NCBI GenBank assembly: GCA_013288945.1
Contig: JABDAZ010000004.1
Span: forward strand, 20,800-84,799
Direction: 5' to 3'
Length of the DNA stretch: 64,000 nt
Origin: Bacteroidota bacterium
GTDB taxonomy: Bacteria > Bacteroidota > Bacteroidia > Chitinophagales > Chitinophagaceae
Shown here piece after piece: positions 2,851 through 6,688 of the stretch. The translations under genes and the position numbers were made by a program. Within the stretch, counting starts at the first letter, position 1; each line of letters starts with the position of its first letter. A model generated the notes under the pieces. The model made no database searches. It was not told the DNA's origin and saw only the letters and a program-made list of their open reading frames with translations.

Positions 2851-3185
2851 ATTAATGTATAAAAAGATGACAAAATAATGTCGGGTACAGGGATCAAACA
2901 ACAATAAACTGAGAGAGTTCAGGGGAAGTGCAAAAAAGTATGTTATTAAATGTACAATCCGTCCAGAACCATATACAAAAATACGTTGCAATACTGGAAA
3001 TTCATAGCCCTTTTTGAAAAAAATCAAATAAAATATTCTCAATTAATTATTTACATCACCATGCAATCGTTTGTTTTGTCGCAGCAATTTCGCTGAAAAC
3101 CGCTGCCAGCTTTATTATCCCATTTTTTTCTTTATTAATAAAAAATTTTTTAACAATTTTTCACTTATAAAAAATGAATAAAAAT

Positions 3186-3215
3186 TTTGTAACTAAAAAA
3201 ATAGTTATAGATTTG
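3186..3215 (+). promoter_or_regulatory. Promoter of the blaI-type operon
   Basis: A -33 TTTG at 3186-3189 is followed after 18 bases by TAGATTTG at 3208-3215, an exact TAnnTTTG -7 box. The start codon is 22 bases further on. Operator 1 occupies the spacer between the two boxes, which predicts direct repression. Confidence 0.75.
3190..3207. promoter_or_regulatory. Operator 1, BlaI-type palindrome
   Basis: Perfect inverted repeat TAACTA-N6-TAGTTA between the -33 and -7 boxes. The half-site AACTA resembles the dyads bound by BlaI/MecI-family winged-helix repressors, and the first gene downstream encodes one. Autoregulation is inferred. Confidence 0.7.
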
Positions 3216-3221
3216 TTTTAC

Positions 3222-3237
3222 AACTAAAAAATTAGTT
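3222..3237. promoter_or_regulatory. Operator 2, BlaI-type palindrome abutting the start codon
   Basis: Perfect inverted repeat AACTAA-AAAA-TTAGTT ending directly before the ATG at 3238. It shares its half-site with operator 1; the dyad centres are about 31 bases apart, roughly three helical turns, so two dimers could bind the same face. Confidence 0.7.
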
Positions 3238-3612
3238 ATGCCAAAACAACTTACAAAAGCAGAAGAACAATTGATGCAACTTTTATGGAAACTGGAAAAA
3301 GGTTTTTTAAAAGATATTATCGATTCTTTTCCCGAACCAAAACCGCACCCAAATACTGTTGCAACTATTTTAAAAATTTTGATAGAAAAAGGATTTGTGA
3401 ATTATGAAGTGCAGGGCCGCAATAATTTATATAAAATAAAAATAAGCAAAGCAGATTATGGAAAGAAAACGATTAACCAACTCGTAAAAGGTTATTTCGA
3501 AAATTCGCCGGCAAAACTGGTTTCGCAATTTGTAAGCGATAATAAATTGAGCCAGCAGGAACTGGAAGATTTACTACAACAAATTAAATCAGCCAAAAAC
3601 AATCAGCAATGA
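3238..3612 (+). CDS. BlaI/MecI/CopY-family transcriptional repressor
   Basis: A 124-residue protein of normal family length. The N-terminal winged helix is recognisable: TKAEEQLMQLLWKLEKGFLKDI, then HPNTVATILKILIEKGFV, the usual recognition-helix region, then a basic wing. The C-terminal helical part should be the dimerisation region. Such repressors bind dyads like the two found just upstream and are relieved when a partner M56 (BlaR1/MecR1-like) membrane protease is activated. The next gene encodes that partner and overlaps this one by four bases (ATGA), implying translational coupling. No beta-lactamase gene is adjacent, so the regulon is probably the operon itself plus unknown targets. 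Confidence 0.93.
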   Translation: MPKQLTKAEEQLMQLLWKLEKGFLKDIIDSFPEPKPHPNTVATILKILIEKGFVNYEVQGRNNLYKIKISKADYGKKTINQLVKGYFENSPAKLVSQFVSDNKLSQQELEDLLQQIKSAKNNQQ

Positions 3613-5522
3613 CAATGTTTATTTATCTCTTTAAAACAATAATAATAAGTGGATTGCTTTACGCCTATTATTTAATCTTTTTGCGCAACAAACAATTTCA
3701 TCAATACAATAGGTTTTATTTATTAAGCATTCCTGTCATTTCATTATTGCTTCCATTATTTAATATTCCATTTCCGGGTTTATCACAATCAAACCCAAAC
3801 GCTGGATTAAAAATTTTAAAAGTAATAACCATTAATGATTGGGAACCGGAAGTTGTGATAACAGCAACCACCAATTGGGCACATTCCATTTTCAACCTTC
3901 AGAATATACTACTCGCAATTTATTTCATCGTGTCATTGCTTCTTTTTTATTTATTAATGAAGTCATTCTTTTACATAATCAGGTTAAGCAAAAAATATAA
4001 ATATGAAAAAATAGAAGGCATAAAATTTTTTCAAACAACGGAAAACGGAACGCCATTTTCTTTTTTTAAAAATATTTTCTGGAACCATGAAATAGCCATG
4101 AACACAAAAAAAGGCGAACAGGTTTTTCGGCACGAATTATTTCATGTAAAACAAAAACATACGGAAGATATTTTATTAATAGAAATTATAACAATCGTTT
4201 GCTGGTTCAATCCTTTCTTTCATTTTATTAAAAAAGAAATAAAAGTTATCCATGAATTTCTTGCAGATCAATATGCAGCATCATCAACTGACAAATATGA
4301 TTATTCTGAATTATTAGTTTTTCAATCTGCTTCAACCAAACAAATAAATATCACCAATTATTTTTTCCACAACGAAATAAAACGCCGCATTATGATGATT
4401 ACAAAATTCAAAAACCCGCGATACGGCTACATCAGCCGCATTATGGCTTTGCCATTATTATTTATTATTTTTTGTGCATTTGCATTTAAGGCCGGCAATA
4501 AAAAAATAAATCCCATTCATTCAAACAAAAAAATAACCATTGTAATTGATGCTGGCCACGGCGGAGTTGATAATGGCGTTTATACCAATGCAGGTTTTTT
4601 AGAAAAAAACATAACGTTATCGCTGGCAAAAAAAATTGAAGCGCTAAGTAAAAATTATAATGTTGATGTTATAATGACAAGAGAAACTGATATGCTTCCC
4701 GGCAATGCAACTACTATAAAAGATGGTTTAATAAACAGGGTTAATATTGCTGAAAAAAATAACGCATCAATGTTTATTTCCATCCACATGGATGCGGCTA
4801 TTAATAACAAACCTGAAAGTGGTTTTTCCATTTATGTTTCCAACAAAAATTCAAACTATCAAAAAAGCATTCAGTTAGGATCTGCGTTAACAGCAGAAAT
4901 AAAAAAAACATATTCTGTGTCTCCTGATTTAAAAGAAAGGCAAAAAGGAATTCTTGTTTTACAATCGCCTTCCATGCCGGCATTAATGATTCAATGTGGT
5001 TATATGACCAATAAAAAAGATCTCAATTTTATTATTGATGAAAAAAACCAGGAACAAATTGCAAAAGATATTTTGGAAGGCGTTGTAAAATTTGCTGATA
5101 ATGCAAACAATAATTCAGCAGGTTTGCCAGATAAAAATAACAGTACAACAATGTTATTAATGCAGCGACAAAATGATTTTATTAATGACACTTCTTCAAA
5201 AAAAATATATTCAAAAGTTGAAGTTGAAGCTGTTTTTCCCGGCGGGCAAAAAGGTTGGTCAAACTATTTAATGACGCATTTAAAATACCCGGAAGAAGCA
5301 CAAAAAAAAGAAATCCAGGGATTGGTTGTTGCGCAATTTGTGGTAAACACAAACGGCGCATTGAGTGATATAAAAATTATCAAAAGCCCAAGCAAAATTT
5401 TGAGCGATGAAACATTACGCATTATAAAAAATAGCGGAAAATGGATACCTGCATCCAACAATGGAGAAATAGTAAAATCATATAAAAGACAACCAATTCA
5501 TTTTGTGCTTGCGCCCAAATAA
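3609..5522 (+). CDS. BlaR1-like M56 sensor protease fused to an amidase_3-like domain and a TonB C-terminal domain
   Basis: 637 residues in three parts. Residues 1 to about 310 form a BlaR1/MecR1-like membrane module with several hydrophobic helices and an HELFH zinc motif at 175-179, facing the cytoplasm in this family. Residues about 310-495 resemble N-acetylmuramoyl-L-alanine amidase (amidase_3): DAGHGG with His317, Glu332, and SIHMDA with His393 supply the expected zinc ligands. The position that is normally the catalytic Glu (LVExGF-like) reads MIQCGY, Gln462. Residues about 540-635 form a TonB C-terminal domain (FPGGQKGW, KYPEEAQ, GLVVAQFVV). M56-TonB fusions are common in Bacteroidota; the amidase insert is unusual. 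Inference: the degenerate amidase binds muropeptides or peptidoglycan in the periplasm and signals through M56 to the repressor encoded upstream. Residual catalysis cannot be excluded. Confidence 0.88.
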   Translation: MTMFIYLFKTIIISGLLYAYYLIFLRNKQFHQYNRFYLLSIPVISLLLPLFNIPFPGLSQSNPNAGLKILKVITINDWEPEVVITATTNWAHSIFNLQNILLAIYFIVSLLLFYLLMKSFFYIIRLSKKYKYEKIEGIKFFQTTENGTPFSFFKNIFWNHEIAMNTKKGEQVFRHELFHVKQKHTEDILLIEIITIVCWFNPFFHFIKKEIKVIHEFLADQYAASSTDKYDYSELLVFQSASTKQINITNYFFHNEIKRRIMMITKFKNPRYGYISRIMALPLLFIIFCAFAFKAGNKKINPIHSNKKITIVIDAGHGGVDNGVYTNAGFLEKNITLSLAKKIEALSKNYNVDVIMTRETDMLPGNATTIKDGLINRVNIAEKNNASMFISIHMDAAINNKPESGFSIYVSNKNSNYQKSIQLGSALTAEIKKTYSVSPDLKERQKGILVLQSPSMPALMIQCGYMTNKKDLNFIIDEKNQEQIAKDILEGVVKFADNANNNSAGLPDKNNSTTMLLMQRQNDFINDTSSKKIYSKVEVEAVFPGGQKGWSNYLMTHLKYPEEAQKKEIQGLVVAQFVVNTNGALSDIKIIKSPSKILSDETLRIIKNSGKWIPASNNGEIVKSYKRQPIHFVLAPK

Positions 5523-5536
5523 ATAACATCCTTCTT

Positions 5537-6688
5537 ATGAAAAGAAATCTTTTTTATTTTTTAATTTTTACTTTTTGTTTTAATAAACTCAACGCTCAAT
5601 CCATCACGCTAGATAAAAATAAAGTGATGGATTTTTTTCAAAACCAACAGTTTGACGAAGCTGTCAATTATCTGTCGCCGATTGTTATTAATGATTCTAC
5701 AAATATTCAGGCGCTTAGTTTTTTGGCTTACGCAAATTATATGAATGACAATATAAAAACGGCTGAAAAATATTACCTGAAAATTTTTTCTATCGATTCA
5801 AACAACATTAATGCGCTTAATTATTTATCTGTCATTAAAAGTTTTTCAAAGCCGGAAGAAGCGCAACAGTACACGTTGCGGCTTATTAATCTTCAACCAA
5901 ACAAAGCGTTGCATTATAGAAATATGGGCAGCTTTTTTAATAGAAAAAATCAAAAAGATTCTGCGTTGATTTTTTATAAAACAGCTTATCAACTTGCGCC
6001 TGATGATTATAAAAACGGAACAGGCTTCGCAGAAATTTTAATTGATACAAAAAATTTTATTAATGCAGACAGCATTATAAACAAAGGATTAATAAAAGAT
6101 TCGTTGAATATTTTTTATTTAAAATTGAAAATACGTTCTGCTTATGAACAAAAAAATTATCAGAATGCGCTGGTAGCAGGCGAAAAATTAATTCAATTGG
6201 AAGATATTTCTTTAACCGCCTTAACCCAGCTTTCATTAAGCTATTATTATTTAAAAATGTACAGCGACTGTATTCGTGTTTGCGAATATTTAGATGATCA
6301 CGAAATTGCTGGCGAATCCATTTATTTTTATGAAGCAAAATCGCTTGCAAAGTTGAAAGATTATAAAAAGAGCAATGAATTATATCAAAAATGTATTGCG
6401 TTTGCTATTTCAAAAACGGCGGAAAATTATTATTATAACCTTGGTGAAAATTATGAAGCATTAAAAGAATATAAACAAGCCGTTGCGAACTATGATACTG
6501 CATTTTATCTTTTTAAAAACCCGGTAATGCTGTATGAATGCGGGAGGATTTATGAAAGCAATTTTAATAATATAAAACTTGCGCAAAAATATTATGCAAA
6601 ATATTTATCAGTTGCAAAGCCAGAAACGCCCGATGAAAAAAAGGCATATGCATATGTAAAATCAAAACAAAAAAAGAAAGCGAAATAA
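5537..6688 (+). CDS. Secreted tetratricopeptide-repeat protein
   Basis: 383 residues with an N-terminal signal peptide (FYFLIFTFCFNKLNAQ) and then helical TPR repeats across nearly the whole length. TPR signatures include ALSFLAYANYMNDNIKTAEKYY, YRNMGSFFNRKNQKDSALIFY and YNLGENYEALKEYKQAVANYD. The tail is very lysine-rich (KSKQKKKAK). It begins 14 bases after the sensor gene and is almost certainly co-transcribed with it. TPR proteins scaffold protein interactions, so a periplasmic partner for the amidase-like or TonB-C domain is a reasonable guess, but nothing in the sequence identifies a ligand. No enzymatic motif is visible. Confidence 0.85.
   Translation: MKRNLFYFLIFTFCFNKLNAQSITLDKNKVMDFFQNQQFDEAVNYLSPIVINDSTNIQALSFLAYANYMNDNIKTAEKYYLKIFSIDSNNINALNYLSVIKSFSKPEEAQQYTLRLINLQPNKALHYRNMGSFFNRKNQKDSALIFYKTAYQLAPDDYKNGTGFAEILIDTKNFINADSIINKGLIKDSLNIFYLKLKIRSAYEQKNYQNALVAGEKLIQLEDISLTALTQLSLSYYYLKMYSDCIRVCEYLDDHEIAGESIYFYEAKSLAKLKDYKKSNELYQKCIAFAISKTAENYYYNLGENYEALKEYKQAVANYDTAFYLFKNPVMLYECGRIYESNFNNIKLAQKYYAKYLSVAKPETPDEKKAYAYVKSKQKKKAK

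Follow-up and report, generated by a model that had tools for sequence, protein, structure and literature searches.

A candidate BlaR1-like receptor with a putative amidase-fold sensor in Chitinophagaceae

The BlaR1/MecR1 receptors of Staphylococcus aureus and Bacillus licheniformis, together with the BlaI/MecI repressors, are the closest described systems to the locus analysed here. BlaR1 is the textbook example of a transmembrane sensor built on a hydrolase-like fold. Its sensor domain resembles a class D β-lactamase and has a very slow turnover (PMC7593790). In B. licheniformis, repressors of the BlaI/MecI type respond to a peptidoglycan fragment (PMC3305447). The M56-TonB_C proteins encoded beside BlaI in Bacteroidota (e.g. 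at loci L036, L044, L035 and L037) share the M56 half, the BlaI partner and the TonB_C end with the protein described below but lack its amidase domain. The N-acetylmuramoyl-L-alanine amidases of the Amidase_3 family (CwlD, CwlV, AmiA/B/C) have the same fold and zinc ligands as that domain, which differs from them in having Gln for the catalytic Glu and in being fused to a membrane protease. In animals, some peptidoglycan recognition proteins are amidase folds that have become peptidoglycan receptors; these have the Amidase_2 fold, use unrelated signalling and lose a zinc ligand, not the Glu, whereas the bacterial fusions are of the Amidase_3 type and keep the zinc ligands. A search of the open-access literature (M56/BlaR1 with amidase, BlaI, TonB and sensor), with subscription papers and preprints outside its scope, found no description of an M56-Amidase_3 receptor; this absence is not proof of novelty.

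The analysed window is a stretch of 64,000 nucleotides from a draft genome of a Bacteroidota bacterium of the family Chitinophagaceae. A single open reading frame on its forward strand (3609..5522, 637 aa), whose start overlaps the end of blaI by 4 bases, encodes the M56, Amidase_3 and TonB_C parts, and the order proposed in the earlier note, a BlaI-type repressor followed by M56, amidase and TonB domains in one protein, is borne out by this frame and by Pfam. The M56 membrane protease part (residues 1-296, 3609..4496) contains the motifs H175ExxH179 and E216xxxD220 and the invariant F252 and R260; the Peptidase_M56 match of Pfam covers residues 24-264 (E 2.6e-12). The Amidase_3 domain (residues 311-492, 4539..5084; Pfam E 1.8e-42) includes the segment 4548-5060 (residues 314-484) first singled out, and in Foldseek it matches CwlV, CwlD, AmiA and AmiC2 with E from 1e-11 to 5e-14. 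The TonB_C domain (residues 557-634, 5277..5510; Pfam E 4.7e-16) matches the TonB C-terminal domains 6i97, 6sly and 5lw8 in Foldseek. In a structure model built from 16 sequences (mean pLDDT 75, pTM 0.43, the relative placement of domains being unreliable), the M56 part has predicted helices at residues 2-25, 28-50, 97-129 and 280-296, followed by the amidase fold and then by the TonB fold. The last predicted membrane helix, 280-296, precedes the Amidase_3 domain, which puts the domain where BlaR1 has its sensor. It is expected to be periplasmic and to take the place of the penicillin sensor.

The similarity of the M56 half to BlaR1 is distant. A profile of 14 fusions finds the BlaR1 structure 8exp with E 2e-8 over 270 positions (hmmsearch), at just about 37 bits, and Foldseek matches the same structure with E 2.4e-7 and a weak TM-score. 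The HExxH, ExxxD and KRR motifs align with those of BlaR1 and are conserved across the fusions. In the profile alignment, the invariant Phe pair F252/F253 falls on F284 of BlaR1, the P1' residue of its autocleavage site, and K258-R260 falls on R293/R294 (BlaR1 topology and motifs from PMC9834060). Common to the window locus and to the BlaR1/MecR1 and BlaI/MecI systems are the M56 gluzincin motifs HExxH and ExxxD, similarity in sequence and fold, the KRR and the predicted autocleavage-site Phe, a sensor domain that follows the final membrane helix, an adjacent BlaI-type repressor with a cleavage-site Phe, and dyad operators over their own promoter. The differences are a zinc amidase fold instead of the penicillin-binding domain, the TonB_C end, and an operon without a β-lactamase or PBP gene. 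Since the C-terminal penicillin-binding sensor is absent, and Pfam finds only Amidase_3 and TonB_C past the M56 part, the window protein is not a BlaR1; by analogy, it may work like one.

The layout, implied by the earlier note to be rare, turned out to be common: we collected 91 distinct M56-Amidase_3 fusions from fetched loci, nearly all of them in the same family. Relatives of the amidase domain were found in 69 of 200 Chitinophagaceae genomes, mostly as fusions. Profile searches of 396 genomes of the phylum and 395 of the class found fusions in four genomes only outside the family (G447, G730, G899 and G902), all with an intact Glu. The M56-Amidase_3 layout is mainly a trait of the family Chitinophagaceae. 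The same M56-amidase order beside blaI-type genes, proposed earlier as a search, was indeed found in other genomes, with BlaI adjoining 80 of the 81 fusions that have enough upstream sequence. An assembly chimera is ruled out by the recurrence of the fusion in many independent assemblies with the same neighbours. Of the proposed three-part layout, TonB_C, found by BLAST in about 35 of 91 fusions, is optional. The window belongs to this fusion family, with M56 and Amidase_3 in one open reading frame that adjoins blaI and its twin AACTA-N6-TAGTT dyads, and it shares the order sigma factor, blaI, sensor and purM-like gene with 12 other genomes of the genus. A split version was seen in genome G014 (L307, 2023-5157), where a separate Amidase_3 gene with the Glu intact (L032) stands directly upstream of the twin dyads, followed by blaI and a gene for an M56 protein that has Plug-like repeats but lacks the amidase. 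A functional link between the amidase and M56 domains is supported by this locus.

The repressor adjoining the receptor, correctly recognised at the outset as BlaI-type, has 124 aa (3238..3612, forward strand; Pfam Penicillinase_R, E 3.1e-27). When it is aligned to MecI (1sd6/1okr), its Q97-F98 falls on N101-F102, the cleavage site of MecI. Two operator-like dyads were read from the sequence upstream of the gene. The first, AACTAAAAAAATAGTT (3191..3206), lies between likely -33 and -7 elements, and the second, AACTAAAAAATTAGTT (3222..3237), abuts the blaI start codon. The likely -33 element TTTTG (3185-3189) and the likely -7 element TAGATTTG (3208-3215) resemble the -33 and -7 boxes of the Bacteroidetes promoter consensus. 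At most fusion loci the dyad pattern AACTA-N6-TAGTT occurs in two copies over the blaI promoter: with the blaI start codon assumed, two perfect dyads were counted in 64 of 80 promoters, three in 2, one in 7 and none in 7.

The window's own genome has five dyad sites in all, with the twin dyad occurring once, and a reversed control gave none. The other three sites are on contigs C18, C36 and C96. A wider regulon in this genome, judged from the C18 site, was rejected, as the dyad there falls within the reading frame for a PKD-like protein. Genus-wide, 33 of 35 twin dyads are no more than about 1.6 kb from an M56 match, their positions being read against the M56 matches; of the remaining two, one (in G206) belongs to a blaI-M56 pair truncated where the contig ends and the other is upstream of a dipeptidyl-peptidase gene (G217). 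This placement near M56 genes makes the blaI-receptor switch look local and self-regulating. M56 proteins without the amidase in genomes of the genus (e.g. L249-L251) have the same dyads in a shorter repeat, with a span of 41 bp against 47-48 bp, which perhaps keeps two BlaI paralogues apart.

A gene for a TPR protein of 383 aa with a signal-peptide-like start (5537..6688, forward strand) begins 15 bp downstream of the receptor gene and is probably in the same transcript. It had been listed as the third gene of the layout, and it is present at the window locus; beside the receptor it is conserved in G217 only (53% identity), which rules it out as a defining partner. Other than the TPR gene, no target genes of the switch were found. 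The G217 twin dyad (L278, G217:C7, about 2846-2893) lies directly upstream of its dipeptidyl-peptidase (S9-like) gene, a possible extra target. As a conserved target it was rejected: a strong homologue is present in only four genomes of the genus including G217, and the twin site was unseen at the other three. At L035, L039, L054 and L065, genes for OMP_b-brl_3 outer-membrane proteins 14-139 bp 3' of the fusion are possible regulated targets.

The amidase domain has its three zinc ligands intact, His317 (4557..4559), Glu332 (4602..4604) and His393 (4785..4787), all on the forward strand and invariant across the fusions. On the same strand, codon 462 (4992..4994) is CAA, and alignments to solved amidases and to the other fusions place this Gln in the column of the catalytic Glu. 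In HMMER alignments, Q462 pairs with the Glu of SILVETGY in 5emi and of SVLIECGF in 7rag (Clostridioides difficile CwlD); with chain 7rag numbered via His49 and Glu65, the column is that of CwlD Glu199. The E199A mutant of CwlD did not complement, and Glu199 was needed for function but, unlike the zinc ligands, not for the levels of CwlD or GerS in spores (PMC8496864). Loss of function with no lower protein level makes Glu199 a catalytic rather than a structural residue. The domain of the window protein thus has the fold and the His, Glu and His ligands of an active Amidase_3 enzyme and lacks its catalytic Glu. A displaced Glu is ruled out by sequence and alignment, since the strand around residue 462 contains none. 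The earlier note was right about all four residue numbers, the intact zinc site and the assignment of Gln462 to the catalytic column.

The Gln462 call rests on a single base in one draft genome that is about 73% complete, CAA being one base from GAA, and the nearest relatives of the window protein have Glu. A sequencing or assembly error hiding a true Glu nevertheless seems highly improbable to us, as twelve other fusions are without the Glu and three of them (L013, L064 and L099) likewise have Gln.

Loss of the Glu is not a defining trait of the fusions. While the zinc ligands are invariant in 91 of 91, the catalytic column, covered by 90 fusions, has Glu in 77 and another residue in 13 (Q in 4, S in 3, L in 3, and H, G and A in one each). 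Glu is also kept by positional orthologues in the same genus and, in the tree, by the window's nearest relatives G219, G217 and G216. As the 12 genomes with the window synteny include the Glu-less members L111, L119 and L121, the Glu is kept or lost at one orthologous locus. Unlike the window domain, the stand-alone Amidase_3 proteins of the genus all keep the Glu, with H, E, H and E in every one of 73 ORFs, which represent about 71 distinct genes since two occur in overlapping loci; as these controls form two conserved groups of orthologues, the contrast is suggestive and not a clean rate test. A Fisher test of Glu-less members, 13 of 90 fusions against 0 of 71 stand-alone genes, gives p 0.0006 with relatedness ignored, and for this reason we prefer the count on the tree. 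On a quick-search maximum-likelihood tree of 87 fusions, the Glu-less state takes 9 changes, eight of them forced by well-supported branches, which puts the number at about 8-9.

The domain otherwise appears to be maintained after the loss. The 12 Glu-less members analysed retain D314, H317, G318, G319, G323, E332, R358, H393 and G464 throughout; the exception among the pocket residues is S391, with 58% in the Glu-less members versus 95% in the others. Measured as similarity of the amidase domain to the nearest Glu-keeping relative and set against the M56 half, divergence in Glu-less members was not faster than expected (Mann-Whitney p 0.38). If the domain were dispensable in some lineages and Q462 a neutral step of its decay, replacement of the Glu by residues as different as Q, S, L, H, G and A would be accounted for; we find this very unlikely, with a zinc ligand lost in none of the 13 Glu-less members, D314, G318, R358 and G464 also retained, no faster divergence and an open reading frame. 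The pattern fits a domain in which the metal site matters and hydrolysis is dispensable. Repeated loss of the Glu with a metal site that is always kept suggests that an enzyme has become a cell-wall sensor and, set against the stand-alone amidases of the same genomes, gives the receptor idea indirect support.

The best explanation, which we hold with modest confidence, is a BlaR1-type receptor whose amidase-fold sensor binds peptidoglycan or a muropeptide and frees its own operon from BlaI. The Amidase_3 fold would take the place of the penicillin sensor in the transmembrane receptor, and its periplasmic, zinc-bearing cleft would bind the ligand. The last membrane helix would relay binding to the M56 protease, which would face the cytoplasm and, once activated, would cleave BlaI, and probably itself, and so derepress the blaI-sensor-TPR operon. 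As the catalytic Glu is Gln in the window protein, its domain should hold the ligand rather than hydrolyse it, and it may be likened to the BlaR1 sensor, also a hydrolase-like fold, with very slow turnover. An amidase version of the receptor would read peptidoglycan directly. Topology, ligand, signal transfer, BlaI cleavage and lack of hydrolysis are what we infer.

An intact active site is kept by most relatives, so that across the system as a whole the amidase domain could be enzymatically active. The main rival, unlikely in our judgement but kept alive by these intact sites, makes the amidase the output: a membrane-anchored cell-wall hydrolase controlling itself via M56 and BlaI, with another part doing the sensing (e.g. 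TonB_C or the loop that joins membrane helices 2 and 3) and with the window copy enzymatically inactive. All four active-site residues are kept in 77 of 90 fusions; most fusion loci have no close co-directional downstream gene, so that the sensor gene is the main regulated product; and the twin operator occurs once in the window's own genome. If hydrolysis were the purpose, one would not expect the Glu to be lost repeatedly while the zinc ligands stay invariant and divergence does not speed up; the domain also sits in the sensor position of BlaR1. A self-limiting sensor, binding and also hydrolysing its ligand in most members, with Glu loss merely lengthening the signal, would explain why the Glu is commonly present and yet repeatedly lost, and resembles the slow-turnover logic of BlaR1 (PMC7593790). 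Sequence cannot tell it apart from the receptor reading that we prefer, and we consider it rather improbable.

More tentatively, the fusions might form a widespread, hitherto undescribed receptor class of Bacteroidota in which a peptidoglycan amidase was taken over as the sensor of a BlaR1/BlaI-type proteolytic switch, has become a zinc-dependent pseudoenzyme receptor at least eight independent times and provides these bacteria with a direct transmembrane readout of cell-wall fragments. A second cell-wall enzyme fold, unrelated to that of BlaR1, occupies the same position in dozens of species. The fusion receptor is a candidate for the direct sensing of peptidoglycan fragments in Bacteroidota. 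At one and the same locus on the chromosome, natural variants with and without the catalytic Glu offer a natural experiment on the conversion of an enzyme into a receptor.

Several variant architectures were observed among the collected loci. Tandem blaI-M56 pairs occur at L035, L037 and L045, the first M56 protein being without the amidase (M56-TonB_C at L035 and L037); at L035 and L037 the second pair contains the M56-amidase fusion. Two small stand-alone Amidase_3 genes lie in tandem at L048 (Chitinophagaceae IBVUCB1, 3920-5253), one of them with Tyr in the column of the catalytic Glu. Longer fusions at L026, L058, L076, L050, L030 and L018 continue past the amidase into C-terminal Por_Secre_tail, GldM_3rd or TonB-receptor Plug domains. 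Por_Secre_tail is a type IX secretion sorting domain, and tails of these kinds are odd for a membrane sensor.
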